Shown piece after piece: positions 1,017-59,153 of a stretch of 64,000 nucleotides of DNA. The notes under the pieces were generated by a model that did no database searches, was not told the origin of the DNA, and saw only the letters and a program-made list of their open reading frames with translations. Position numbers and translations under genes: made by a program. Numbering within the stretch: position 1 is the stretch's first letter; each line of letters begins with the position of its first letter. The DNA comes from Rhizopus arrhizus (Eukaryota > Mucoromycota > Mucoromycetes > Mucorales > Rhizopodaceae): positions 806,001-870,000 of the forward strand of contig JAKZZE010000020.1 in NCBI GenBank assembly GCA_024220505.1, written 5' to 3'.

Positions 1017-1856
1017 TTAGATATTTCTTGCTTTTGTCCAAGTTCTCGCTTTTGTTCCTCCATATACTTTTTCCTTTTTTGACGAAGCTAGTGCTCGGGG
1101 ACGTCTTACACTTATATTCACAACGCCGAAAGGAGAAATGGCACCTGGAATGGTAGTGGTCTTTGGTCTTGTTCTGGGTACCTTTACAACTGCGCGACTT
1201 CCTTCTTTGGACCAAGAAAAGTTTCTCTTGAGATTTATATGGAAGGCTGCTTCGTCTATGAACACACAATTGCTTGTGAAATCCAAGTCAGTCTCCATCC
1301 ATCGCTTAACCCATTCGTAGCGCTGTTTAATTTTTTCAGATGTATTTCTCTCAACAGGTTGCAGATGCGCTTTCTTGAAGGTAATCCTACACTTTTGTCT
1401 AACAAACTTATAGAAGCCACTTCTAGTGATTTGAAGATATCCAAGCTTTTCAGTCAAAGCATCAAGCATATCTTCTAGTACAACAGAGTCGGTGTTCTCG
1501 TCCGCTCACTGAATCATGTAATTCTTGTGCTCATCTGTTAGAACAGGAAGTCTACCGACTGGTCTTCCACTACCAGGCGACCTTTGAATATATTCCTGTG
1601 GAACTTTATTGTTCTTTGAAACCCATCCCTGTGTTGTGCGCACGTTAATGCTGAGTTTCTGAGCGGCAGCTCTAACACTCCTTCCTTTTTCCTCAACAAG
1701 AAAAAAAAGCTGCTCCTTCTCAACATCCTTATAATGCTTGTTTGAGCCCTTTTTATCATCCATTTGAGGCTTTTCAGCGGATGAATTGTTTCTCTCTTTG
1801 GCTTCTTTTTCAGATGGCTTCAAATCAATATAGTTGTCAAAATTTGTCACTTTCAA
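1017..1856 (-). pseudogene. Tc1/mariner (IS630-type) transposase, truncated
   Basis: The 5' half (1506-1856) encodes a helix-turn-helix region (EEKGRSVRAAAQKLSINVRT, then a GRPVGR linker). The 3' half (1017-1469) encodes the start of the DDE nuclease with the first catalytic aspartate in NCVFIDEAAFHI and a downstream WSKEGSRA block. The halves are in the same frame and are separated only by an in-frame TGA at about 1509-1511. The protein stops soon after a GGTKARTW motif, so the second aspartate and the glutamate are missing: the 3' end is deleted. This is a dead copy related to, but clearly diverged from, the transposase at 8.4-9.6 kb. I found no convincing terminal inverted repeats. Confidence 0.85.
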
Positions 1857-2217: not shown

Positions 2218-3320
2218 TCAAAGAATAGAATCTACTTCTTTTAACAGTTTATGATAATCAAACTTTTCAGGACAATCATTAAATAATTTCACCAGCTTTA
2301 GTTTACGCTGATCATCAGAGGCATAAAACCTTTGTAATGCAAATGCTAAAAACTGAGCATTACCAGTAGAGAGCATCCTTTTTGGGTTACCATTGATGTC
2401 GCCCTTCATCAGCACAATACCTTTCTTTTCCAAAAGTTCAGGAAAATGCGTGATTGTTAAAAAGGGTCTTGCTTTCTCTCCTTTTGATTTGTATTCTAAA
2501 AGAGATGTGATGTAGCATTGATGCGATTGAAATTGAAGAAAGAAAAACTCCAATCCAGATTCGCGAGGCATAGGAAGAATAAACTATTTCGAGTGTCCGT
2601 AAGCTGCTGCTTAAAGTATAAAGGTATATTGCTTACCAAAGGGTATTTTTTTGATACTTCATACATTTTGCAATATATTCTTTCCGGTATCACTGCAGAA
2701 ATACCATCTTTATCAGCATGATATTGAGTCCAAATCTTAGCGATAGATTCTGCATCTTCTTTTAAAAGCATATCAAGTTTTACAATTTTATCCAAGGTCT
2801 AAAGGAAATTATTTAGAACGGTCTCATTTTTCTTGACTTGCTATAGCTTACAAGCGCGTCTGATTGATATTTAATATTTTGGCTTTGTTGCTCAGGTACA
2901 CGTTGAAGAATAGGTATCATCTTTGGTTCCAGTTTTTTTTGTACTGATAGAGTCTCTTTAAGCTCCTGAACAGTCAAGCCTTTCCTTTTTTTTTTTTTTT
3001 TACAAAAGTTAATTACTTTTTAAATATCTTCTTTGTGTGTATACTTTTCAGCTGCTTTTTTTAATTTCGATGCATATTTAGATTCATAGTTAACTTTTAC
3101 TTTATTTGCTTCAAAAGCAGCTTGTCTAATGCGTTCTGAAATAATGTTTCAAGAAAAGTTAAATGGACATTGAAAAAAGACGCTATGAAAGTATACCCCA
3201 TTTCTGACCACCAAGAAAAACTGAAGCGGGAGTATTTAGTACCTCGGCATGTCGTGTTTGTATGAAAAAAGTATCTAGTGATTTAAAATGGTTCAAAAAC
3301 GTGGTGGCTCTTTTCAACAT
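2218..3320 (-). CDS. ATP11: Mitochondrial F1-ATPase assembly factor Atp11 (ATPAF1)
   Basis: Chaperone that binds free F1 beta subunits in the mitochondrial matrix so that the alpha3beta3 hexamer of ATP synthase can form. Five exons (3197-3320, 3045-3135, 2852-2984, 2637-2798, 2218-2583) sum to 876 nt, 291 residues, in the usual size range. The N terminus MLKRATTFLNHFK is basic and suits a matrix presequence. The core carries family landmarks: TLDKIVKLDMLLKEDAESI, IWTQYHADKD, SAVIPERIY, then LPMPRESGLEFFFLQFQSHQ and KGIVLMKGDI. The intron between exons 2 and 3 ends in a run of about 18 A on the coding strand directly before its AG acceptor, where a pyrimidine tract is normal; the frame nevertheless requires splicing there. 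No frame breaks were seen. Family identity is from recognition of conserved blocks; exon limits are my own reconstruction. Confidence 0.88.
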
Positions 3321-6300
3321 TTAGTGCAACATGTGAAAAAAAAAAAAAGAGGAACAGTGACTTGGTGTTTAACAAAAAAAAGTTGTACTTGTTCTTTTTA
3401 GCGTCTGTTTTAGCAAACGAACTTACTAATTTAGAAAGGGACTATTTGATAACGCCTCTCCTTTTCTTTTTAACTAATGGCACCATCTGGTGATATTCTT
3501 GTCAAGTACATTATGTTTTGAGTTATTGTATTCTAAATAAAACGTAACACATGGGATTTTCTATATTGAATATGTTATCTATTACATATAGCCTAACGTG
3601 CCCAAACTCAAATTTTTGTAACAAATTTGATCATTTTATTCGAAATACGTTGCTTAGCATTAAGTAGCTCGTTTTAGTGGGAGTAAAAATAAGCTTTTGA
3701 AATTTTACAAGGGTACAGACTCATCTTGTTCCCTCAAGTTCAACTTATAATAATTTGGTTCCTATTTAAAAGGTAAATGTGGTTGTATCAAACTTTGTGA
3801 CCAAGAGGATTTGAGAGCGAGAATAGCTGATGATTATAATAAAGTCCTCAATCATCGCCTTGAAATTTTATTTGACTCTACTAATATGCTTCAAATACGG
3901 TTAAACAAAACTTGTTTCTATTATGAATAAGCTTTTTAGGTTACACCTTAAGATGAATTAAATGACAATTATGTAAAAGAAAATTACATTATGTTGATTG
4001 GAATCCGAGAAGGGGAAACAAACATTACCAAAGATGGTCTATATTTTTAAAGCAAATAAGCTGACGGGTTTGAGACTAGAAACGAAAGTAGAGAGGTTCA
4101 TTAAGCCTGGATAAGTGGTCATAATTATATCAGATGAAACAGTCAACAATGAAGAAAACAATTGTTATGATTATCCAAAGCTTTGAAGAAGCAATTAAAC
4201 AAGGCTCACAAAAAAAAGGTAAAGAGGTAGGAATAAACTTCAATCCTTGAACGCGGAAATCAGATCCATTTCGTCGTGTGAAAGCTATATTAAGAAAGTC
4301 GGTGATAATATAGTATTAGACGAAGTAATAAAACTTAAAATAGCCGAAAGTGGTGATTTTAAATACTGTATTATCTCGTAAGAATAACAAGACTATAAAA
4401 TCCAATGAGATTTAAAAATGTTGTGTTTTTATTTAGCATTATTGTATCTAGTATTTATAGCCTTTTCATAAAGATTCAATTAAATCCTTTTCAAGATACT
4501 TTAATTAATTATAGCCGTAGATCTATTATGAATCGATTTTAATATGAAGATCTGTTTCTGGTTATGTAAGAGGATTGTTTATAATTATTTCTTAAGTAGA
4601 TCTATTTTTCATCTATGTGTCATTGCATCAGGAGCTACATTAAAAGAATTTGCATTGAGTTAAAGGAGTAAGATTAGCTATGATCAAATGATAGAGAACA
4701 GTTGTAATAAAACTTTGTAAAGCATACACTACTCTAATTTCTTATAAATTGAATATGAATCATCTTTAAAGTATGTTGGGATACAACAAATACGTTATTA
4801 CCAAGATACTCATCTTCTAGTGTTATCGATCAATTGAGCTTGTAGTGCGAAATGAGTTGGTAAAAATATCAATGCAATGTAGATCTCAAAATTCTAGTCA
4901 GCATTAAGGAACCAAAAGAGGTAGCAGAGGATTATAGGAATAGCTCAGAGCCTGAAAATCACAAACCAGGTAAGATAAGGCTGATAAAAGGGATTGATCG
5001 TGGACTGGACATAAAATAAGTCGGAGCCGCAATTACTTTGCCTATTAATGCAGAAAAAAAAATGAAGTTCCACTGTCCTAAATATTGACCTCTTGTCTTT
5101 CATCATACGCTATTACGCACTACCTGTGGATAGCAATTTGGTTATTTATATAACTTCCTCTGTAATCGCTTTAAATAATTGATCTTACAACATGTAGCAA
5201 TAGTTATCTTTAAAGAAATATAAAGTACAATGAAATCAATATCAAAAACATCGAGAATGTAAAAAGATTAATGACCACCACAAATTTATGTTGGCTTCTA
5301 AAATAAGTTTAATTCTATGATCGAAGAGTGTAAATAGATATTATCCATATTTAGAAAATAAAAGATGTGTGACATAGTTTTAGCCTGCATTGTTCTACTG
5401 AATAATAAGCTATATGAATAGGGCGGTTGGCCACTGCTGCAATCAATGGATGCACGATCTTCAAGCATTTATTAGATTGCCTTATTCGTCTATCTCAGAG
5501 AATAAAGATGTCCATTTTTAAAAAAAAAATATTGTCATAAAGTCAAAGCCGCATGAATATTTACAAAGCGCGCTCAAGAGATCATATGTGGTAAGCACAA
5601 GTAAAGACATCAGCAGTGACATTTGAGAATTAACAATTATGTCAAAACATCCAAAGAAACCTCAAAGTCAAAAGTTTATAAGCATGTTTATTGATTTGTA
5701 AAGAAAAAAATTAGTTGTCAACAATGAACTCTACACTAAGCACCTTTACAAAAAGAAAGAAAAAAAACTGAACGCGATAATATATATCCATGTATTAATA
5801 CATCTGTAAGCTCTTTTTTTAATGAAAGTAATACAATGAATGAATTGAATAAAGTTGAGTTATTTTCAAAATTCATTACGTAAACTTATCTATTAATTGC
5901 ACAATAGGAACGATTTTGTATATTTTTTTTTAGCTTTTCTGGATACGTGAATATCTGTTCCTTTAATTGTAAATATAAAAAATAACCAAGTTTCTAACAT
6001 AAATTACGAGTTATATCATTTCAGAACTGACTTCTTTTCCAATTCACTTTGCCAATATTCTTTTGATACTTTTTCAACTAGCATTTTTATTTTTTTTCTC
6101 GAATTATGCACTGTCAATACCAAAAGCAGATACTTGAGCATCTTGATACTGAATTAATCCTTTTAAAACCTTTGATATAAAACGATCGGTTTCTTTCTCT
6201 TTATTCATCACATTGTTGCCTTAAACTTTTCACGGTATTAATAGTTAATTTTCAGACTAAAATAGGTAGATGTGAAAGTGTAATAAAAAAGAATGAAATT

Positions 6301-8422: not shown

Positions 8423-9580
8423 GTGCAGAGTAGTGAGAGCGATTTGAAAGAAGAGAAGCCTCTCAGAGACCTGACTGAAAAAAAAGACGACGCTGGCAAT
8501 GCTAGACGTGTATACACTCAGCAGGATATCAACAAGCTTATTGCTCTGTTAGTTAGACAGGCACCTATAAAGGATGCAGCTTTAAAGACAGGAATAAATG
8601 AAAAATCAGCCTGCCGTTTCAAATCGCAGTGGCAGAAAACTGGGGAGGTACCTCAACAGAAGAAAAGAGGATGCAGAGTGAGAACTGTCTCTGAGCTTAC
8701 TGAGAAGCACTCAAAGTTTATTATCGACCTTGTTGATGAGCGTTCAACTACAACTGTAGCTGAAATACACGAATTGTTGCTCATAGAGTTTCCAAGTTTC
8801 TCTGTAAGCCCATCCGCAGTATACAGACATCTTAGGACCAGCTGTGCACTATCTATGAAGAAGTTGGAGAAGATTTCAGTTGCTAGAAATTCAGAAGAAA
8901 CTTTGAAGAAGAGAAAGGAGACCATCCTTCAATGGCTAGCTGATAAAGAAATGGTCTTTGACAACAATTGCGTGCTTTTAGATGAAGCAGGATTCAATCT
9001 ACACATGACACGCACTCGTGGCTGGTCTAAGAAGGGAGAACCTGCTAGGACAACTGTCCCTGCTTCAAAAGGCACTACAATAACCATCCTTGTTGCCATC
9101 TCAAGTGCCAGCGTTATTGACATTTCTTTGAGAAAGCCAATAATGGTTTCGGGAGCTAAGAAGAGAAGAGTAGATGGTAAAGTTGTTACAACAACAGCCA
9201 AAGTTGAAACAAGGGCCGAGCATTGTCTAAATTACTTGAGTAATGTGATGGATGTTCTTGACCGAAACAACATGAGGGGCTTTTACTCGGTAATGGACCA
9301 TGCTCCCATACATAAGCCAGCTACAGTAAGAAATTTGATAGAAAGCAGAGGCTATAGATGTGCATATCTTCCACCATGCTCACCATTCCTAAACCCAATT
9401 GAGCTATTCTGGTCGAAGGTGAAGTATGGTGTCAAAAGAAAGCCTTTTGAAACTGGTGAGACACTCACACTCAGAATCATGGATGCCTGCTCCAAGGTAA
9501 CCAAGAAAGACTGCCAAGGCTGAATCCACCATTCCCTCGAATTCTTTGAAAAGTGCTTAGCCCTGGAGAAAAACTTATAA
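8423..9580 (+). pseudogene. Tc1-type DD34E transposase, nearly complete
   Basis: Cut-and-paste transposase of the Tc1/mariner-IS630 superfamily. The open frame 8423-9523 gives 366 residues: an HTH region (YTQQDINKLIALLVRQAPIK), a second HTH/linker, and a full catalytic triad with D in LLDEAGFNLHM, D in SVMDHAPIHK and E in NPIELFWSKVK. Thirty-four residues separate the second D from the E, hence DD34E. The frame ends at TGA 9521-9523, but the same frame runs on for 18 more protein-like codons (IHHSLEFFEKCLALEKNL) to a TAA at 9578-9580, so the TGA looks like a mutated tryptophan codon. Upstream in-frame sequence from an ATG at 8198 is interrupted by TAA, so the acidic N terminus may also be damaged. 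Terminal inverted repeats were not convincingly found. It could be barely functional but is probably decaying. Confidence 0.85.
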
Positions 9581-11179: not shown

Positions 11180-11902
11180 TTAAAAAGTGGTATTTTTCTA
11201 GTGTGATACAGGCTCCAAGAGACCTCTTTTCATTAAAATACTTATGGTGTATTTTGGCCCATATTAGTATGAAACAGTAGCATGTTTTGATGTTATCTTA
11301 CATCAACTTAAATAGCTTAATAAAATGGTTGCCTAGTCATTACATTGGTTTATATATTCAAGTAGCCGATTCTGTTTCCATCGCAGAAAAAAAACGTTGA
11401 AAAAAGTATCTTAAATAAATATGACAAGAAAGGGTTTCCATCGTTATGGACAATTGCAGAATTCATCACTCTTCTTTTGTTGTGGAAGGTATGAACGAAA
11501 GAGGCTATGTGGTTATTATAGAAGAGTGCCGGGTGAAGATTAAAATCGATATTAAAAGTAATCCACAGGATAAGGAGAACAAGCTCAGGCCTGACATGGT
11601 TGCAGCCTGTTAGACGGTTACTGTCAGCAATTGTCAAGGCATGATTAGACCCTCAAAATAATTACGATACAGAAATATCAACAAAGAAGTAAGAATTGAA
11701 ATGACCATGAAGTATCAAAAATGCTATTCATCTTATTTTATTCTTAAAAATAAATTGACCCACTTTTTTTTAACCTTTTATTCGGACGTCTTTAAACATG
11801 AAGTTCATCCAGTATTCTGTCAGTTATTTTCCTAAATACTTAAAGAGCCTTTGTAATCAATTTGACCAAAACATTGGTCAATTTATTTGCAAAAAGTGGT
11901 TA
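11180..11902. other. spacer between split gene and Fanzor element
   Basis: Mostly featureless. The last ~60 bp contain repeated TTGACC / GGTCAA words that also occur just outside the right end of the Fanzor element, suggesting the element landed in, or evolved with, another TIR-like repeat. Confidence 0.4.
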
Positions 11903-12013
11903 CAGTTAAAGAAACTAGGTTGGGCCAATGAAAAAAAATTTGGTCAATTTAAAATTGATTTTAAAATGTTTAACTCACCTTTTTTTGGAAAAAGTGAAAA
12001 TGGAAATCAGACA
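11903..12013 (+). repeat. left terminal inverted repeat of Fanzor element
   Basis: About 110 bp. Starts CAGTTAAAGAAACTAGG and ends near GGAAATCAGACA. It matches the reverse complement of 15269-15473 except for an extra block of about 90 bp in the right copy. Confidence 0.82.
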
Positions 12014-12147
12014 CAGGAGTTTTGTAGATTGAAGGTGGTTAGTATATTATCCGTAATCTGAAGAAAAAAAAACTTGTCCAACTTACACTGTACAGAAGTA
12101 TGAGAGAGTCATATCAATCACACGGAAAGCTGGCCACTGGGATCTGA
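11903..12147 (-). ncRNA. candidate Fanzor guide RNA (fRNA/omegaRNA) region
   Basis: Noncoding stretch between the nuclease stop codon (12148) and the left element end. In characterised TnpB and Fanzor loci the guide RNA is encoded next to the nuclease gene, commonly downstream and reaching the element end, with the guide taken from flanking DNA. By that rule, transcription on the minus strand would run through this segment and the left TIR, and the guide would be the flank just outside 11903. The part nearest the stop codon is less A+T-rich and contains a small TGGCCA palindrome. I see no proof of transcription; this is inference from locus architecture. Confidence 0.35.
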
Positions 12148-14881
12148 CTAACGCACAAAGGCATCAAGACGCTGATTTTTGTTTTTTGCAGCAAATAAAA
12201 ATATATCCAGTATGTTATGAGCAGTCATGATATCACGATTCCATATAACATTACAATTGTTTTGCTTACACTGCAATACCGTATGTACTCTTCGTTTTGA
12301 TTTGGCGGTTATAACATTGTCTACGTTTCTAGTCTTGCATTTGTTGCAGATTTGGCTTGTTAAGTATTCATCCACCATGCAAATATCAAGCTGCTTTCCA
12401 CAATATTTTTTCAAAGCCTTCTTAATCATCCGTACAGGAGCAGATTTATTTCCACGGAGGCTGGAACCAAACATACCATCACCAAAAGCAACGATGGTTT
12501 TCTTGGATCTTTTTTCGTGATCAATGGGAGCAGAAGGATAATATCTATTCTCTTTCTTGGTAGATATTCTTACACCTGTATTTGCTTTTTCATCGTATTT
12601 GGCACTGCCATGAATGAAGCGCTTACAGATCTCATGAACACCTTTTTGTTTTCTCATGTAGCATTTGAACTTCAGCTTTGATGACCTACACAGATTTTTG
12701 CATGTTGCTCAAGTAAACAAGTAAAAAAAAAAAATCATGTTTCTATTTACCAAGGTTTTTCATTGTAGTAACTTGTAATATCGTCATATAAACTTAGTCT
12801 TTCTTTGCAAGCTTTTAAAAATTCTGCCATATTGGATGTCTTCAACGAGCTTAAATTAGAAATTTTCAAAAACTGAGCCTTGTGTTGTTCTTGATGCTTT
12901 TTTCGTATAGAATTCGCATCATTATAGCCACACAGATGATAATACTCGTCCAAGCTTGTAGTTCTTTGCCTTCCGGATGTATCGATGGCAGTTACAAGTG
13001 TGGCAACACCAGGATCTACTCCCCAAATTTCACAGCCATTTTCAATATCTTCGAGGAAGTCCTCAGGCTGTTTTCCCAGTAGAGTATCTATTTGTTTTTT
13101 CTTCCTCACTCTAGAAAAAAGGAAAGAAACCGAATACCCATCGGTATATATAACGTTTCTATGTATAACTTGATTAGATTAAGGCTCTTATTTTTCAATT
13201 CAACTAAGCTAACTTACTGAAACTGTTTTTTCCCCTCTGAAAGGCTTTTTCGAGTTCGAAAACCCATTTTGGAAAAGTTAAAAAGCCTATAGTAGAAGTC
13301 CGAGAGAGCCGATTTATCCTTAACACCTTTTGGGATATTTTCAATACCAGATTGCTTCAACAGTCGCCAGAAAGCTTGGGCATCTATTTGTATTGACTTC
13401 ATCGCAAATGAGTATACAGGTAAGATGGAAAAAAAGCGATAGCCTCGCCGATCCGTGTATTTAGCAGGCGTGAATGTTCCATCTTCAATTCTAGACTGGA
13501 TACTTGTAATAAATTTCAAAAGAGCAGGTAAATGGGGCTCAAGCTTCTCTAATTTTTTCCCAAGCACTAGTGGTATTTTTGAATTAATGCTTTGCAGTAC
13601 TTGTTCCTGTAAAGACTTGAAGCTTCGTCTATTGAGTATTGAAGTAAACGTGAGTTCTTTTAGCTTCCTATAAATGTAGGACTTGGAGGCAAAGGTGGCT
13701 GGTTTTTCTTCCATAATATACACCTTCTCATTTATCTTTTGCTGAAGATAGAAAAACCATTTGAAGAATTCATGAGGTTTGGAGTACAGGTCTTCCGCAT
13801 CGCAGTTCATTGTCTGATATCGACTCCATAATACATTCATCTTCTCTATGGTTTCTTCTAAGCATTGATTTCTTTCTAAAGATGAGGGCCATATCAATTG
13901 CTGTTTCTGCTTTAATGTATAAACATAGTGAGAGAGTGCTTTTCTTTGGGTAACTGATAATCCTTTGCAATAGAAGGGAGAAGACATATCTAAAAAAGCT
14001 TCCAGAAAAAAGCGGGTTGTTCTCCTTTCATGGTTTTCATATACATGGTTGTGTATGAGTACATCATATTGTTTACACATAATAGACAGAACAGACGAAT
14101 ATCCAATACTCTTGAGGGATTGCAGCATTGTTTCATTGACTTGGCATTCGTTGCAAAATTCAACAAAGTAATCTTGACAGTATTTAGGGGCTTTTTTGCC
14201 ATTACCAGTTACAACAGTGAAAATAGAATAGACAAGGGTATGATCAATAATTGGCACTTGTTCCCCCTTGTTTAAAAGCTTCAAAAAAATATAGTTCATA
14301 AATAGTGAGCCTACGTAGATCGCTTTGGTTGTGTAGGCCACTACTGAAGCAATCTTTTCATAAACCCTTGTGTCCGTACATATATTTTTTAAGGAGGATT
14401 TGATTGCAAAAGTTTCCTTTTTCTCATCAGGATTGTAAGATGGCTCCTTTTGCTTCTTTTTTGGGCAAAGGTTGGATGATGATCTTGAGTGAGTATGCAA
14501 TCCGCAAGAAGGACATGTCTTTTCTGTATTGCTTTTTGTTTTCATTCTAAAGTCCTGCAAAGCAAGTTGTTTATCTATTTTCTTCTGTATCTTTTTGGAG
14601 GTAGGAGGAAGAGCACTAGGAGTCTGTGAAGTAGAAGCCTGTGAAGTAGAAGCCTCTGAAGTAGAAGCCTGTGAAGTAGAAGCCTCTGAAGTAGAAGCTT
14701 GTGAAGTAGAAGCAACGGAAGTGGTCAGAGCAGATGTAACTGATATATTATCAGAATTGACTTCTTGAAAAAAAGTAAGGAACATGATACCTCGCAATGT
14801 GTTATTTTGGTACTTACTCTTTAAAACCTTTCTTTTTGTTGACGAGCTCTTCGCAGGATCATTTTTATATCTTCGCTTCAT
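12148..14881 (-). CDS. Fanzor (eukaryotic TnpB-like) RNA-guided nuclease
   Basis: Four exons (14818-14881, 13218-14763, 12751-13110, 12148-12685) sum to 2,508 nt, 835 residues, with no frame break. The N-terminal part has a Ser/Thr-rich spacer of repeated ASTSQ/ASTSE and a CPSCGLHTHSRSSSNLCP zinc-binding motif, followed by a long helical region. The RuvC-like core is split across the last exons: RuvC I in WGVDPGVATLVTAID; a VAFGDGMFGSSL block; VDEYLTSQICNKC leading into a C4 zinc finger (CNKC ... CKQNNC); and RuvC III in IWNRDIMTAHNI with its aspartate. The glutamate of VDEYLTS may be the relocated catalytic Glu reported for Fanzors (inference). Known Fanzors cut DNA at RNA-guided targets. 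The 54-bp first intron is a multiple of three and open, so it can be mistaken for coding sequence. Intact catalytic motifs suggest it may be functional. Confidence 0.88.
14627..14716. repeat. 15/30-bp tandem repeat in the Fanzor linker
   Basis: Alternating units of the type GAAGTAGAAGCCTGT / GAAGTAGAAGCCTCT (plus strand), repeated about six times and encoding ASTSQ-ASTSE on the minus strand. Near-perfect identity suggests recent expansion by slippage in a disordered linker near the N terminus. Confidence 0.9.
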
Positions 14882-15268
14882 TATCTATTATAAGATTCAG
14901 AAAGAAAATAAATGTTTATAGATTTGTTCAAGTTCTGTTACTTTCTATTGAAATCCTTAATGACCAATGAAAATTTTGTGATATATAACAGTAGCAAAAC
15001 TGATTAATTGCTTTGGAGCATCTCAAAACTATAGCTTGTGGCGATCCAGCGTAATTACTAATCATATGCTTTTCTTGACTATTTAATTAATAGACTGGCA
15101 GGTAATGTAATTGGCTATATGGCTTATGTAATGTTATAAGATAATAAGCATTTTGCATAAAATTTATTTTACCTCATATTTTGTAATATACACAGTGGGG
15201 GCTAAGTAAATCTGTCCATTTTGAAGATGAATATTCATAACAAGCAATGGTTTCAGAAATTACTGCTT

Positions 15269-15473
15269 TGTCCGATTTCCATTTTCGCTTTTTCCAAAGA
15301 AAGGTGAGTTAAACATTTTAAAATCAGTTATTATTCGTCCAAAAAAAAAACTAACATTCTGTCTCTCCTTTGTCCCATTTTTGCATTGGTGTCTCATTTT
15401 GGCAACCGTGTCTCAATTCAATTTTAAATTGACCAAATTTTTTTTCATTGGCCCAACCTAGTTTCTTGCACTG
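15269..15473 (-). repeat. right terminal inverted repeat of Fanzor element
   Basis: Inverted copy of 11903-12013, ending at 15473 with TA outside. It contains about 90 extra bp (about 15327-15415) absent from the left TIR, with the word TGAGACAC twice and an A/T homopolymer. Confidence 0.8.
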
Positions 15474-17029
15474 TAATTTATTTTTGAAGAGATGGTCAAA
15501 TTAACTTTAAACATTTGGATAAAAGAGTCTCCTTTTTTTTGGTCAATTTAACCTCACACTATTCGTCAATCTTTTTCAAAAAAGTGGTCAAACTTTTCAA
15601 ACAATTGGTAAATTGAGAGTGGAAGCACTGTAATAATGACAAGCATGCAAAAAGTTTAATTTTCTTTCTTTTTTGCTTTACTTGACTAAATGTAGCCAAC
15701 TTATCGTATTGTGAAGATTGATATCATTAGAGATACAATTACACTATAAAGCATTTGCATAGTGATTGCCATGTTCGCAAATACTAAATCCTTTTATGCA
15801 ATTGTGAAAAAGTATGTATATCCTGTAATGCTTAATGTATAGATTTGCTTTCAAAATGGTTTTTGCTCCTATGTGAGCATTTGGTTGTAGCAGATTATCA
15901 ATATGAATGGTACCTTGAAAACATTAAAATTTGAAGTAAATTACTTTCACCACATAAAAGATGCTCACAGGTCTTGCGTTTATTGTAGTGAACAATGTCT
16001 ATTTAGTCCTTAATCAATGATAAGGAAGATTAGAGAAATAATACAATATGGGTTTTAGATAATGTGGGGAGTGGCCCCAAGGTGAGATTGAAGCAAAATG
16101 AGCATTTTGCATGAAGGACCCGAGTTAATAAGCTATGTACAACGACTGGCATATACCACTATTTTATCCCTTTTTTTTTTTTTTCCTAAACTATATTAAT
16201 TGACTTGCATAAATGAATGCAAAATGGACAACAGGCTATCATTGCGTGTAATCTTACCAATCTTGTTAAAATATGTTGATTACTGTATTATATTGTTGTT
16301 CTATGCTCCCCTTCTTTTTTTATTAAATAGATAAAAAGAAGCTAAATCAGACACTTTATATATACTAAATTCTATAACCTATCCACTGTTGAAAAGCACC
16401 TGAAAAGTAGCTGAGAAAATAGTTTTACAAAGATAAGTAATATGCTCACGTAAAAACAAATATTTATGAATTTGCTACAATTTAACAAGCCCGAGTTTTA
16501 TAGGAACTCTGAAACAGCAAATGGCATACTGGGCTACTGAATGAACTTTCACTTTTTCTTATTGTCCAATAATTCATCAACATCTTTAGAGACTTCAGGA
16601 ACCTACATTGATTTCGATTGTATCCATAAATCTTCTTTTGATCTTTCCTTTGTGGCAATTTATGAAAGCTTTAAGATGTTGTTTAAGGCATGCGAATGTT
16701 CATTCTATACTACATGAAACAAATTTATATATTTTTTGTACTTAACCAGAAAGGCAGAAAGGAACATCTAATCATGCATGACACTATCATTGAGCATTAA
16801 TTTCACTGTGCTGTGAAAGAAAGTCATTAAATTAAAATGGCAAGCAAATTCAATAGGCATCCAACATCAGAAACAAATTTTTCTTTTTTTGCTTCAATTG
16901 GATATCATATCATCAATTAACATCACTCTTCTCTTTCTAAAAATAAAAAACAAACAAACCAACAACAACAACAAAAAAACTTTTTTGTAAGCCTCATTTG
17001 CTTCTTCATTCTACATTTTTTATATCATA
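15474..17029. other. intergenic with an extra TIR-like end
   Basis: Immediately right of the element, 15474-15630 ends in a second TIR-like terminus: read inward on the minus strand from 15630 it is CAGTGCTTCCACTCTCAA, again with TA outside (15631-15632). No left partner was found. From 15640 to 17029 no gene or RNA is evident. Confidence 0.5.
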
Positions 17030-18068: not shown

Positions 18069-21000
18069 TTATTTTAGCAGTTGATCAATACAACCATTGA
18101 TAAACTCTTTCTTACAGTTCATGTCTATTTGAAATATATCAGACAGGATATCTCGCACTTGTTTTTTGCTTAATTCCATCAAGTCATTTTCGTCTAATAT
18201 TCTCACTATTTCTTGAAATATAGTTTCGTCATCAGGCATTTCGCAGTAAGAATCATGATCACTTGAGCACGTATCACCATCCCTATAGCCGTCAACTTCA
18301 CCTTCTGAACTTGTCTTGGTTTCTTCACTTGCTAACTCTTCTTCTTCTTCACGCGCCATTTCTTGTTCATGTTCAGACCATCTCTTCATAGGTATCACAC
18401 TAGGATCAAATGTACCTTCATCTGGACCCACTGCTTTCTTCTGCCCTTGTTCTCCTACAACAATACGTGTATTTCCCCAAGAGAAGTCATCAAAGTGCCA
18501 AAATGAGTAAAGAGGAATAAAGAATGAAAAGACTGGTATGGCCAATATATAAATAATCATCCATCCTACATGCTCCCACTATATAATATCGTAAGGATCT
18601 ACATACAAATAGCCTCATCTTTACCTTTCGCCTTATAATAAAGATGATTGCCTGAAGACCGTAGACACCTGCCAAGGTAATGATAGACATCAAAGGTACC
18701 TGATTTGTATTTGTACACAGCTGATAAATCAAATAACCTAAATAACAAACGACAGCAGGCATCACCAACGTACTCAACAAGTCCAACATGACAACAAAGC
18801 GCATTGAAAAGCAGCAAAAGCCACACAGCTGAGGTAAGAACATCAATTCTCCTAAATTGTGTATTGTGGAATTGATCCAACGCCGGCGTTGAGATAATAA
18901 CACTGGCCATTGGTCTGGTGCGTTTGTCATACAGGCAGCATCAGGCGTGAATTTTGTCTTGAAGTGAGGAAAGTGCTTCAAGATTAACGTAGTCAAGTAT
19001 CTGTCCTCACCTAAATGTAGCAAATTCTTTTTATGAAGTGTGTCTACCTGATTCTCTGCATAATCATTAATGATTTCATGAGATGCCAGCAAAGGTTGGT
19101 TGCGTATACTAGATCGAATACGATACATACAAAAGCATCCAGGTAAGCAAGTGACTGACCCAAATAAAGACTCAAAAGCCTTGGCTAAATGATGTGAGAT
19201 ATAATACTCATAGACTTGAATCATTGTCACCCAAGTGTCCTTTTCGTTCGAAAGCATCGTCTCTCCACATAAGCCAACGATCTTTGCATCATGCACAAAG
19301 CAAGAAACCATTCGATTTAGAGAATAAGGAAGGACTTCTGTGTCAGCATCCACCATCAAAACAAATTCATAAAAGCTTGGGTTGACACCAATCACGTTCT
19401 TGAGTTGATGATGGATCTCTAATTCAAGTGGTGTCATGAGCGAATCAAAATGAACTTTATTCAGGAACCGCATCAGTACCATCTGTGAATCACGTTTGCC
19501 ACGGTTGCCTGGCTTTTGCCGTTCCTCTGTCGTTCCCACCTTGACAACCACAACAAAGGGGACAACATGCCCAGAACATTCATAAAGTCCAGAGTACACT
19601 TTGCCCATATTATGCTGCTTTTTACCCTCACCCAAGGATAAGAATGACATGGGCTCTGGATCAAGATTAGGATCTACTCCCAAGATGTCCAAGACGATAC
19701 GAGGGGTTGATCTATCATTGCCACTGCCAACAATCATACCATCTGCAATCAAGAAGAGTAGCTTACGTTTGTCATCATATCTCAGTACAGTCAATGAATC
19801 AATGGTCTTTCTAAGTGATTCCTCTCCTTCAGTATAACAAGGCACTTGGCAGATAATGAACTTGTCATATTCTTCAATCACTTGCTCAGATCCAAGTCGT
19901 AAAGCAGCCAAGAACTTGAACAGGATCACACTACATAGGAATCCAGTAATCAGGAGTAAAATGTATTCGGAAAATAAACACTGAAGCGAGTTGCGACTGT
20001 CGACCTTACCAACCAGGAACAAATTTCTTAAACAGGTCAACTGTCGCTCACGCACCGTCTTGTCTAATGGCAAGGCATCAAAGTGAGCAGATATATCAGT
20101 ACCTGCTAGTTGACGAAAGAGCTCGGTGATGGAATTATCAATAAAATCCGTGTCAATGTCTGCTGAAACTGTTTGCCCTTCAGGTGCACGAACCACTCGA
20201 CCCCCCATCATGTAGGATGTGAGATCATAAACGCTATCATGTAGAATGGCCCAACGTCGCTGGGTACGGATACCTCCGATTTGTATAGGGTTGGTGGATT
20301 GGTCCTTGATGTCTACTGGATCATATCCCATGAAGCCAATACGGTAGTTTGTCCTTAGATACACCATTTGCTCAAAATACCAGTCTGGACGATAATCCTG
20401 TCTAAAGTATCGAAAGTCGTGATAGATCGAATTAGAGTCGGTTATATTAATATGAGTATCCATCGTCACTTCCTTGGCTACATAGCCATCGATACCATCA
20501 CACAGAGCAGATACTTGTACGGGAAATAAGTCGCTTGCATCTTGTCCCGCATATTGAAATAAGGCGCTGGTTGGTATCACTTCCGAGGCCCAGTGACGAG
20601 GTGCAAACGAGGTCAGATCAAATACCTCGCCTCGTATCACAATATAAGCATTATCTCGGCCACTCTTGGCTTGAAGCTCAGATTGGGTATATAAATCTTG
20701 GTGAGGACACACCAGTTGTCCAAAGAAGGCTATAAACCAAACCATTGCTGCACACAATAACAAAATGACCATACATAATGTCACTTTCTCTCGCCATGCC
20801 ATCCGGATATCGGATCTTCGCATGCCACATCCATGTGATAACATAAAGCTAGGGATCCACCATGTCGTAAGCCAAGTCAGTGTGACCCAAAACCCTCTAG
20901 ACGGGCTGATTCGTTTCTTTCTTGGTTCTTTTTCTTGTTGTTCAGAGGAATCATTGTGTTGTTCTTTGACTGCTTCTTCTTCGTCCTCGTCATCATCAAA

Positions 21001-23500
21001 TACGGATGCAACTGTAGTAGCTGTTACTGTAGTCGTACTATGATCGCAGGATTGAGAGTAAAATGATTCTTCACAGCATGCTTCGTAACAGTCCTCAGAA
21101 TAAATGGAGCCTGCCTCAGTCATGGATCTGCATGAATGTTGAGCATACATTGGATCACCAAATTCTTCCTCGTCATCCTCAACTATGATTCAAAGAAAAG
21201 ACAGCGTTAATGATTGTTCTAATCAAAATAGGTATGCTTTTTCTTTTACCAAATGGAATTCCTTTCGCAATACACCTTGCTCTTCTTTGTTCTCTTTTCT
21301 CAGTTGCACGAAGTTTGTTTTCTAAAAGTGCCCAAGCTGATTCCGTCAAAAACACCTATCAACAAGAAAGATTTTTTCTTTAAAAAAACAATTCCTTCAT
21401 GTAAACCTTTTTTTTCTCGTCACCTTTTCTTCATGTTGTATCATCATCTTTTCGTCCCAATCCAATACATCTTGCAAAGCCAAAAATTTTTCTTTGGGTT
21501 CAGCAGCCAAGTCCACAGCAGTTGCATGAATCAAATCAGCATATCTTTCACAAAACTCTAAAAGATCAATGTCAATCGTGTACTCCAGCCGAGACCTTTC
21601 GACAAGTGGAACTAGATGAAGTGTCTTTATCTGTGCCGCTAATTTCTTGGGATCACACGAATGTGGTAGCAGTAAATCGTTGGATCGAAGACAGGTGACG
21701 TACCAGTTTTTGGATGACGCAAGGGTTGAGAGTATCTTGTCAATAGGTCCCGCTACTGCTCTTTCACTACCAGTATCTGCCTGTGAGGAATTGACAGGTT
21801 TTTGTGAGAAGAGTTTGGTGACGAGTCGATTGGTAGGTGCCTCAGTTGCCTGTGGTCCAAAGAGGAGGATAAAATCTGTACAGAGCGTCTCGTGGGCGCG
21901 TGTGAGGAATTCTGAAGGTGAATAGGTTACAGTGCCAGTAAAATGTTGAACAGAAAACAGTGTCTCTTGTCCTCCAGTCTTGAAGCTCAAGCATGGATTC
22001 TTCCGGTGGTTTTGCTTTAGGATCTCCAAGAATCGGCTGGGTTGTTGTAGTGATGGTGGAGGGGTAGTCAGCAATCCTGTCTGTGGACGGTCAAACAGTT
22101 GTACGCAATCGTCTATTAACGTATTAGGAAAGGTAGGTGCTGGTACACGCAAGACAGAGTAAACTGAACTGTTTCTTTCATAAATCTGGTGAAGCATATA
22201 GTGGTAAAGTCTCTCATTGGCATAAAGCATCGATAATTGTTCAAAAGATCTGTGTCCAATGGGTGCTGCCCCAGGAAAGTCAATGATACCGATCGTATTC
22301 TGAAACTCTGCTTTATTCAGCTTTTTGTTGAACATCTCTATGAGCCAAGAAAATAAAAGTTTGTAGAGTGTCTCTGCAAGTGTATCTCGCTGAAGTGCGG
22401 CTTGTTCTGCATTAAGAAAGATTGTTGTTAGGTCCCGCTTGATAAGTTTTGTTTGATAAGTGAGACAAGTCTCTAGGGCTTTTGGTTCAACACCCAAAAG
22501 TTCTGCAGCAATTTCTAGTTCGGCCATGTTTTTTACAATAGCTGAATCCTGTATGTTTGTCGCATCATCTGCAAAATGAAGGTTGCCCAAGTGTAATATA
22601 GCAGCCAATATTTGCATCATTTGAAGAAAAGTACCTTTATGGACACCCAAGGACTTTAATAAGGTTCTTAGCTCATTGTATTTTTCTGTATCTTGTTCGA
22701 CGAGGGCAGCCGCGAGCCTTGCAGCTTCTTTTGTTTTGAATAAGTACGTGTAAGATGCTACTTCATCCAGATGTAATAACGACTTTATTTCTGGTGTACT
22801 TCCATGTAACATGTAGTAAAAGATGTGAAAATTTCGTTCATCGCCATTGGCTTGTGTAATTCTTGATCCTTCAAGCATATAGTCCATAATTTTCGCACCT
22901 ACCATTCTCCCCTTTTCATTAAATTGTAATTCTAGATGTTTCCCAAAGCGGGAAGCATTGTCGTGTACGGTCGTCTTTGCATGCCCAAATGCTTCTAAAG
23001 CACTATAAGCCATTTGTATCAGTTGCTGTAATTTTGTTGGCTTTTTTGGGTTACTGAGAGTAATTAAGTGATACAATATCCACTGGTTCATTTCTGATTT
23101 TCCACTTCCACATAGACCACTAAATATATATAAAAGGAGAAGTTTTTTTTTTTTTAGTAAGGAGCTTTCCTTGTTGCAAATTGCATGTATACCTCAGTAA
23201 AATAGATTGATCAATCCGAGTACGACGCATATGAAAATAAGCTTGGTTGACGTGTTGGAAGATGTGGACAGGCAGTCTTTCTTTAATATCTGTATTTTTA
23301 TATTCGGCCAAATATCTTTCACTGATTTCTTGTATTGTTTCACGAGAGTCTTTATATGGGTTGACGACGATTAAGAGTGAATGCTTCACTCTGGTATATA
23401 TTTGATCTTTTAAGAATCTCTCCTTTAATACAGATACAATTTTCTCTTCATTTACATCCTCAATTTCTGAAAGATCTTCAACTATCTGCTTTGTAGCCAT
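18069..23500 (-). CDS. Chitin synthase with N-terminal myosin motor (class V/VII type)
   Basis: Membrane glycosyltransferase polymerising UDP-GlcNAc into chitin, with a myosin-like head that helps deliver or retain the enzyme at growth sites. Five exons (23193-23500, 21424-23119, 21250-21355, 18625-21182, 18069-18578) sum to 5,178 nt, 1,725 residues. Order: myosin head with P-loop GLCGSGKSE and FGHAKTTVHDNASRFGKHLE; acidic linker; TM helices; cytochrome b5-like domain (GEVFDLTSFAPRHW); catalytic CHS domain with CQVPCYTEGEESLRKTID, MVDADTEV, LPGCFCMYRI, LGEDRYLT and the QRRRW signature; C-terminal TM helices; and a DEK_C-like tail (LSKKQVRDILSDIFQID). All hallmark catalytic motifs are intact. 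The myosin and synthase parts look like separate frames but are joined by two small introns around a 106-bp exon, with consistent phases. Confidence 0.93.
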
Positions 23501-56428: not shown

Positions 56429-56502
56429 GCCCGATTGGCCAAATTGGATACGGCGTCCGCCTTCTAAGCGGAAGATTGCGGGTTCGACCCCCGCATTGGG
56501 TA
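56429..56502 (+). tRNA. tRNA-Arg (anticodon UCU)
   Basis: Folds into a standard cloverleaf without intron: acceptor GCCCGAT/ATTGGGT (two G-U pairs), anticodon stem TCCGC/GCGGA around loop CTTCTAA with anticodon TCT, T stem GCGGG/CCCGC around TTCGACC (B box GGTTCGACCCC), and discriminator A. A box TGGCCAAATTGGATACGG is recognisable. Reads AGA codons, which are common in A+T-rich genomes. Confidence 0.95.
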
Positions 56503-58011: not shown

Positions 58012-59153
58012 CTAGTTCACTCTTCCAGGTCGATATTTTATTTCAAATTCGTATTCGGCAAGTGCTATGATCCATCGTGCGATAATTCCAGTAGGATTTG
58101 GCGATTTGAGTAATCCGTGTAATGCTGAGTGATCTGTGATTATTGTGAATCTCTTTCCCAAAAGATAAGGACGAAACATGTTTACTGCCCATATGACTGC
58201 CAAACATTCTAGCTTTATCGGTGCGTAATTTATTTCACTGGACCTTAGTCCCCTACTCGCGAATATGATCGGATGCTCGTGACCATTATCATCTAATTGT
58301 GTAAGGATACACTCAAGCCCTGCTTTTGAAGCGTCCGTGACCAAAATAAAAGGCTTACTAAAATCGGGTCTAGTTAAGATAGGAGCTGTTGTAAGCAGTC
58401 TCTTAAGAGTTTCAAAGGATTCAGTGGTCTTTTCTGTCCATGGAACTTGTTTGATCGTTTTTGTTTGATCATGTAGAGGTCTTGCTATAGCGGCAAAATT
58501 TTTAATAAATCGCCTATAATAAGAAGCCAAGCCTAAAAATCCTCTGACTTGTTTGAATGTCTTTGGTTGTGGATATTCGATGATTTTCTTGATTGTTTCC
58601 GGATCTATTTGCACACCATCTTTTGTTACGATATAGCCAAGAAATTTGAGATGATCTTTGAAGAAAAAACACTTTTCGGGATTTAGTTTGAGATTTGCAA
58701 TTTGTATACATTGAAAAACTTGCTCCAAGTGGTGTAAATGGTCTTGTTGGTTGAATGAATATACATTTAAGTCGTCTATATACTCTACTAGACACTTATT
58801 AATAAGTGGCTGAAAACTAAATCTATGAGCCTCTGGAATGTGGCAGGAAAGTTTACAAGTCCCATTGGTAAGGTATTGTAATGGTATATTCCAAATTTTG
58901 TTGTGAAGGCGGTTAGTTCTTTACTATCTTCATCCATCGGTACTTGATGAAAACCAGCTCGCATATCTAGTACTGAGAAAACTTTAGCTTTTCCTAACAT
59001 GTCTAGCAAGTCATCAATTCGTGGCAATGGATATGCATCTTTTTTTGTAACTGCGTTAAGCTTTCGATAGTCTATCACCATTCTATATTCTCCATTTTTC
59101 TTTTTAACTAAGATGACTGGCGCAGCCCACGGACTGTTTGAAGGGGAGATCAC
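58012..59153 (-). pseudogene. Ty3/gypsy reverse transcriptase-RNase H, frameshifted
   Basis: RT begins PWAAPVILVKKK with YRKLNAVTKKDAYPLPRIDD, VFSVLDMRAGFHQ and TLPMGLVNFPATFQRLID; a one-base frameshift near 58795-58806 separates these from the catalytic YIDDLNVYSFNQQDHLH and the rest (LNPEKCFFFKDHLKFLGYIV, QVRGFLGLASYYRRFIKNFA). RNase H follows with FILVTDASKAGL and TIITDHSALHGLL and stops at KYRPGRVN. The codon after it is TAG, and the next codons (SADF...) resemble the normal continuation but contain further stops. Another frameshift lies just upstream of 59153 and a TAA interrupts the HKI-IV junction at about 59251. The catalytic YIDD is present, but expression as one polyprotein is impossible. 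Confidence 0.88.

Follow-up and report, generated by a model that had tools for sequence, protein, structure and literature searches.

Fanzors are proven RNA-guided nucleases, and the locus described here raises the question of what such a nuclease does for the mobile element that carries it. The locus is a 3,571-bp element of the fungus Rhizopus arrhizus, referred to throughout as the Fanzor element, which lies at positions 11903-15473 of a 64,000-nucleotide stretch of contig JAKZZE010000020.1 (assembly GCA_024220505.1, positions 806,001 to 870,000). This whole stretch is called the window, and coordinates are those of the window. A first-pass annotation, made from the sequence without database searches, had proposed an intact Fanzor gene between terminal inverted repeats. 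According to Saito et al. 2023 (PMC10432273), what Fanzor cleavage does biologically is still not known.

Here, we compare the Fanzor element with its relatives in the same genome, and find that several copies carry, at one end only, a few bases of target sequence in place of the element's own terminus. The explanation that we favour, with a probability of about 0.6, is that the Fanzor element is a non-autonomous element of the Tc1/mariner type with a Fanzor1 RNA-guided nuclease as cargo, and that this nuclease, guided by the element's own flank, would cut the empty site and have the element copied in by repair. The further statement that the genome holds fossil evidence of a Fanzor acting as a natural RNA-guided homing drive, the scars at the left ends coming from incomplete trimming of a stub, is put forward more tentatively, at somewhat below even odds.

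The Fanzor element and its ends

Read directly on the plus strand, the Fanzor element begins with CAGT, ends with ACTG and has TA outside both ends. The ends are named relative to the minus-strand gene, with the left (5') end at 15473, upstream of it, and the right (3') end at 11903, downstream. The parts are as follows:

11903..15473, minus strand: whole element, CAGT...ACTG (from sequence, repeat comparison and at least 27 further copies)
15474..15475, unstranded: TA target-site duplication, left end (from sequence)
11901..11902, unstranded: TA target-site duplication, right end (from sequence)
15415..15473, minus strand: left outer terminal inverted repeat, 59 bp, 95% identical to the right arm
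11903..11961, minus strand: right outer terminal inverted repeat
15262..15343, unstranded: left inner inverted repeat arm, 82 bp, 87%
11939..12020, unstranded: right inner inverted repeat arm, displaced outward relative to its left counterpart

The CAGT repeats with TA on their outer sides are as first annotated, but the single, nearly identical repeat of ~110 bp described there is really an outer repeat of 59 bp at 95% and an inner one of 82 bp at 87%, whose two arms stand in different registers at the left and right ends. A TA target-site duplication and inverted repeats beginning CAGT are hallmarks of Tc1/mariner elements, and both are present here. No open reading frame (ORF) of at least 100 aa occurs inside the element apart from the Fanzor exons.

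A Fanzor1 gene with three introns

Four minus-strand exons joined by GT/AG introns give the open, 835-aa protein that had been proposed:

14818..14881, minus strand: exon 1, start ATG at 14881
14764..14817, minus strand: intron 1, 54 nt, GT/AG, in frame if kept; length 52-56 nt among 24 copies
13218..14763, minus strand: exon 2, holding the STSEAST repeat tract near 14620-14715
13111..13217, minus strand: intron 2, GT/AG
12751..13110, minus strand: exon 3, RuvC-I VDPG (D569)
12686..12750, minus strand: intron 3, GT/AG
12148..12685, minus strand: exon 4, with E763 (alternative RuvC-II glutamate), zinc finger, D808 (RuvC-III) and stop

Retention of intron 1 also leaves the frame open, giving 853 aa, so the window sequence by itself is no proof of this intron. 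Its removal leaves 12 copies with an intact ORF, and in five of them its length is off 54 nt by 1-2 nt; such variation among copies fits an intron and not coding sequence, which supports splicing. The STSEAST repeat tract lies in the N-terminal region of the protein and is probably responsible for the range of lengths, 815-870 aa, among intact copies.

The RuvC I motif (WGVDPG, D569), zinc finger (CNKC and a CX4C pair) and RuvC III motif (NRD, D808) noted at first pass are all present, and the rearranged RuvC-II glutamate, E763, sits six residues ahead of the zinc finger (E763-YLTSQI-CNKC), where the homologue profile described below aligns it with DEY of SpuFz1. The Fanzor signature given by Yoon et al. 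(PMC10711439) consists of DPG in RuvC-I, a rearranged glutamate and a third acidic residue, and the Fanzor1 signature is complete in the window protein, with DPG (D569), E763 and D808. Pfam recognizes the Cas12f1-like_TNB zinc-finger domain (PF07282) over its curated cut-off (E 5.1e-7), and two database searches, each scoring 8,000 candidates, yielded 16 homologues, the best with an E of 2.8e-211. Twelve of the 16 bear an organism name and belong to Thamnidium, Cokeromyces, Pilobolus, Rhizopus and Mucor, all of the Mucorales. A profile of these 16 homologues (A2), from which the window protein itself was left out, matches SpuFz1 (8gkh) in the PDB across a span from RuvC-I to RuvC-III, with an E of 3.1e-7 for the whole sequence and 3.5e-5 for the best stretch. 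A single-sequence search of the PDB with the window protein found no Fanzor, and NCBIfam gave nothing above its cut-off. With profile matches both to SpuFz1 and to the zinc-finger domain of TnpB/Fanzor proteins, the Fanzor identity first assigned is borne out, and, judged from its sequence, the window protein is an apparently complete Fanzor1. We infer nuclease activity, a guide RNA and homing for the Fanzor element, and predict that the protein would make a good candidate for a programmable nuclease.

A multi-copy family under selection

The window's own assembly (50.3 Mb, 41 contigs) was searched and holds at least 28 copies of the element, four of them clearly partial (L025-L028), together with short end fragments. 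The whole four-exon frame and all splice sites are kept in 12 of 24 aligned near-full copies, whereas a three-exon model leaves only eight of the 24 intact. Among the 66 pairs of the 12 intact copies the mean ratio of nonsynonymous to synonymous substitution (dN/dS) is 0.33 (range 0.18-0.55), a value that the picking of intact copies pushes downward, and the mean dS is 0.05; over all 24 copies variation is 0.035 at third codon positions versus 0.020 and 0.019 at the other two. Because half of the near-full copies are intact, dN/dS is 0.33, dS is 0.05 and third positions vary most, the family is under purifying selection and not a fresh single arrival. The intact frame had been attributed at first pass to recent arrival or to selection; selection is favoured by the dN/dS and by the 12 intact copies, and recent arrival is countered by the at least 27 other copies and the dS.

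Other copies in the genome share the element's ends, as had been anticipated. The same 13 terminal bases, GTTTCTTTAACTG, are found at 25 of 27 right ends, the exceptions being L017, which has a left-type end, and L014, with one base changed. At the left, only eight of 19 ends have the canonical 13 bases.

A one-sided flank and the predicted guide RNA

Both ends are readable in 19 copies, and these form the set used for the left flank. The four bases preceding the left end are ATTA in 18 of the 19 and ATTG in the other, and the base before these is A in 17 and G in two. AT stands before TA at 10.2% of the 11,316 TA sites of the window, and against this background the enrichment of ATTA has a p of 2e-17. 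On the right side, AT follows the TA (TAAT) in only five of 27 copies, and the motif is thus one-sided, at the gene-upstream end. Neither this flank nor the left-end patches described below had been noted at first pass. The left flanks of L002 and L009 were taken from beyond an inserted long interspersed element (LINE; see below), and in L006 and L011 ATTA is present both in the adjacent flank and in the flank past the LINE piece. Two left ends outside the 19-copy set agree, with ATTA in L044 and ATTG in L040, a 69-bp ghost.

A conserved CA precedes the left repeat of SPu-1, a Fanzor1 element of Spizellomyces punctatus, for which the measured target-adjacent motif (TAM) is CATA (Saito et al., PMC10432273), and PpFz1 of Parasitella has the TAM ATN (PMC11423790). 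Because of the SPu-1 precedent, we predict by analogy that the TAM of the window Fanzor is ATTA, with the TA duplication included. The putative guide-RNA features are as follows:

15474..15478, minus strand: predicted TAM, AATTA on the minus strand (ATTA takes in the TA duplication), from ATTA in 18 of 19 copies
12082..12092, minus strand: TACAGTGTAAG, proposed closing stem of the guide-RNA scaffold with CTTTAACTG plus TA, from complementarity and conservation
11881..11900, minus strand: predicted guide/protospacer, 20 nt past the right-hand TA, by analogy with Fanzor/TnpB anatomy

Variability was computed for intervals over element positions 1-640 and 3200-3571. Among the least variable of these (0.006-0.019 pairwise) are the final ~65 nt of the ORF and the ~70 nt with which the 3' untranslated region (UTR) opens. 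Within the 3' UTR, TACAGTGTAAG is complementary enough to pair with CTTTAACTG of the right end and its TA (11911-11901), and the TACAGT within it is intact in 26 of 27 copies; the distance from the stop to the right end varies widely, from 153 to 355 nt among copies. For Fanzor1, the inverted repeat and TA were predicted to be part of the scaffold by Yoon et al. (PMC10711439), and by the same anatomy the right-hand TA (11901..11902) is predicted to form the last two bases of the scaffold. Rfam at gathering thresholds found only a transfer RNA (tRNA) in the window.

Target-derived patches at left ends

The left end of each of the 19 copies was compared with its target – the bases beyond the right-hand TA – and scored by the length of the shared prefix. 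Five copies have target sequence instead of the element's own end over the 4-11 bases that follow ATTA (L002 11, L016 10, L019 6, L024 5 and L009 4); shorter matches occur in L004 (3), L012 (2) and L008 (1), and the remaining eleven copies score 0. Added up over the 19 copies the match is 42, a total that none of 20,000 permutations of the right flanks attained. With two flanks corrected for the LINE insertion, the summed match was reached by 1 of 100,000 and 0 of 100,000 permutations in two runs. Leaving out L009 and L024, in which the patch hangs on one deviating base each, gives 6 of 100,000, leaving out the two longest (L002, L016) 18 of 100,000, and leaving out the five LINE-associated copies 15 of 100,000, results that are somewhat weaker and in the same direction.

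The patches have two further properties. In L002, L009, L012, L019 and L024 they are in register, the foreign bases replacing an equal number of element bases. At the inner edge there are bases common to target and element (two in L002, four in L016, three in L019, three in L024, two in L009 and none in L012), summing to 14 over six copies (simulated p 3e-5), or to 10 over five copies without L016 (p 1e-3). We read the left-end patches, as far as sequence can tell, as repair scars of RNA-guided homing. Target bases to the left of the element imply a break within the target of an empty site that was still intact. The natural candidate for making this cut would be the nuclease that the element itself encodes, with the right flank as guide; it may also have been a random break or the work of another enzyme.

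A model of self-site homing

We propose that the scaffold would be formed by the 3' end of the transcript, right inverted repeat and TA included, and the guide by the ~15-20 nt beyond it. With its own right flank as guide, the nuclease would be aimed at the element's own unoccupied site, which would read ATTA and then target. The cut would fall within the target, on the right-hand side of ATTA, and the element would be copied in as the break is repaired from the occupied chromosome. Copying would begin on the right, in homologous target, and finish on the left, where the stub of ATTA plus target bases would form a 3' flap opposite the element's left end. Were this flap partly trimmed and then extended from a paired base, an in-register patch would result, on the left only. 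Transposition to new sites would probably be carried out by a transposase supplied in trans. Such a flap would account for patches that lie on the ATTA side, are mostly in register, mostly have their inner edge at shared bases and are shorter than the cut distance of SpuFz1. That enzyme cleaves the non-target strand after bases 16-17 (PMC10432273), which leaves room for the longest patch (11 bases).

Several observations weigh against the homing model. The patched set is small, with five copies having at least four bases and seven at least two, and the permutations draw on right flanks within the Fanzor family, nuclease-free families lying outside the comparison. L016 is short by three bases and L004 is displaced by one; three of the four 'shared' edge bases of L016 are absent from the copy itself, and the patch of L012 ends at no shared base. 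The left-end changes of L007, L015 and L017 are not target-derived, and the match in L008 is one base. No patch pattern is seen in the 5'-truncated copies L010 and L018 or, by eye, L041-L043. While the genome search proposed at first pass produced further copies, the empty sites with a single TA that it was also meant to reveal were not found, there being no match across the joined flanks for the 12 of 19 copies searched (best 40 of 158 and best 40 of 79 candidates). The 3' UTR of the window copy folds no better than shuffles (z -0.44), and the last 80, 110, 140 and 200 nt of six copies (24 folds) gave z from -2.27 to +1.51; folding energy thus lends no general support, and the argument for the closing stem is that of complementarity and conservation.

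One-ended copying was considered as an origin of the 5'-truncated copies and was rejected, as the left junctions inspected carry no target sequence.

Alternative explanations

The alternative that survives best, although we consider it unlikely, is that a Tc1/mariner transposase acting in trans moves the element, ATTA being its target preference, that the patches reflect ordinary repair at fragile or re-opened sites, and that the Fanzor is uninvolved. This would fit the mariner-like CAGT ends with their TA duplications, the same window has an ORF for a DDE_3 transposase (8423-9523), and transposase binding or scaffold constraint alone could explain the conservation of the right ends. However, the one-sided preference, with ATTA at the left of 18 of 19 copies and TAAT at the right of 5 of 27, would be odd for a transposase that acts on a symmetric TA, and excision would leave a left stub without target, so that target-derived left ends would go unexplained. 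Moreover, when the 20-base core of the ends was searched for, allowing at most two mismatches, the 47 matches comprised copies of the family, short fragments and a single related end, L046, and no transposase partner, and Pfam found no transposase in the two of four L046 ORFs tested.

That the patches arose by random mutation within the left inverted repeat is highly improbable. Changes that do not match the target do occur at the left ends of L007, L015 and L017, but the summed match is reached by at most 1 of 100,000 permutations, or at most 18 of 100,000 without the strongest copies, and the inner edges of the patches lie at shared bases. Least probable of all is that ATTA and TA are the element's own and that it inserts without duplication, like IS200/IS605 or IS607, which would suit the near-invariance of ATTA at the left end, but in the patched copies the same target bases follow both ATTA and the right TA, so that the empty site must have read ATTA-target with one TA, and in L006 an element-free ATTA-ATCTATGA occurs next to a LINE.

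LINE insertions at element ends

Five copies (L002, L003, L006, L009 and L011) are flanked on one side by a dispersed LINE, which stops at the element and in which a reverse-transcriptase motif was recognized by eye. The LINE lies within the left inverted repeat of L009 and the right inverted repeat of L003, at a mirror-image spot eleven bases in, and has given a duplication of 13 nt in L009 and of 16 nt in L003; in L002 it is found at the same spot, immediately behind the 11-base patch. These three cases are resolved as LINE insertions into element ends and were used to correct their flanks. The insertion spot is shared between left (L009, L002) and right (L003) ends, and a site preference of the LINE for AAGAA/ACTAG is suggested; the LINE may be of the Grem-LINE1 type, a name taken from the Mucor literature.

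In the left flank of L006 (~1000-1500), the LINE lies between ATTA-ATCTATGA (eight target bases) plus six extra bases and the canonical element end. Either the LINE came first and the element entered its duplication, or LINE complementary DNA was captured during repair. In the left flank of L011 (1233-1500), a 267-bp internal LINE piece without poly-A lies between AAAATTA and the left end, and resembles filler DNA at a repaired break.

Other Fanzor families and neighbouring genes

The same genome holds a second, divergent Fanzor1 family with ~32% identity to the window protein (E 1.6e-8). Its copies (L047-L050) have the right end ...AAATACTG, followed by TA in three of four, and share with the window family a ~80-bp subterminal module that is ~80% identical even though the proteins are so divergent. 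Only one pair of facing ends was found for this family, at C14:856087-863202 (7.1 kb, TA on both sides), which could be a candidate autonomous partner. More diverged Fanzor C-terminal matches are spread over many contigs, and the genome probably holds several Fanzor1 lineages.

Elsewhere in the window the following features were recognized:

8423-9523: DDE_3 (IS630/Tc1-like) transposase-domain ORF, 366 codons, open
1017-1469, minus strand: 150-codon ORF, by eye a piece of another IS630/Tc1-type transposase, with no Pfam match at E 0.001
58012-58728: retrotransposon remnant, reverse-transcriptase RNase H domains
18490-21150: chitin synthase gene with a cytochrome b5-like domain
21397-23091: ORF resembling a myosin motor domain, by eye
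56429-56502: tRNA gene (Rfam)

With the DDE_3 ORF open, the first-pass statement that all other mobile ORFs in the window are broken proves too strong. This ORF stops at a TGA, behind which 18 more codons are open in the same frame, and it may be cut short.

Relation to known systems

Fanzor1 genes in TA-flanked elements with terminal inverted repeats have been known since 2013 (Bao & Jurka, PMC3627910), and ten Fanzor1 families are counted in Mucor circinelloides in that study. The window element is a further member of the SPu-1-type Fanzor1 elements. Like it, SPu-1 is described there as a multi-copy element with a lone Fanzor1 between terminal inverted repeats and TA duplications, and about half of the copies are intact in each case (9 of 17 full-length copies of SPu-1, 12 of 24 near-full copies here; PMC3627910). 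Both have two conserved bases before the left repeat and small, gene-less 'ghost' copies. The two differ in flank (ATTA here, CATA in SPu-1), in introns (three, versus a single ORF), in protein length (835 aa, versus 633 for SpuFz1) and in repeats (compound, 59+82 bp, versus ~30 bp), and the homology of the window protein to SpuFz1 was found by profile only.

Parasitella belongs to the Mucorales, and no Parasitella chain was listed among the PDB matches of either the single-sequence or the profile search. PpFz1 of Parasitella parasitica, which has a FRI/cyclophilin domain, is, like the window protein, a mucoralean Fanzor1, and its TAM ATN (PMC11423790) is compatible with ATTA. PUl-4 and PGv-1, in which a Fanzor1 is carried by Mariner elements, resemble the window element in their TA duplications and mariner-like ends, and some such elements have no transposase gene (PMC3627910). 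In comparison with this group, the window element has no transposase, and none sharing its ends appeared in the scan described above.

A parallel to the homing proposed here is TnpB of IS200/IS605, which is described as cutting the empty site and having the element copied back by homologous repair (PMC10432273, PMC11870625). In contrast to TnpB, the window system is eukaryotic and has DDE-type ends with a TA duplication, and we infer retention from junction scars. The literature searched on Fanzor and TnpB homing and retention, with most subscription journals outside its coverage, contained no report of Fanzor-homing junction scars.

If self-site homing is true, the patched copies may go on homing with a left repeat that is useless to a transposase. 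The family supplies a dozen intact natural variants together with a predicted TAM, ATTA, and the scars themselves, and with these Fanzor homing becomes a testable question.

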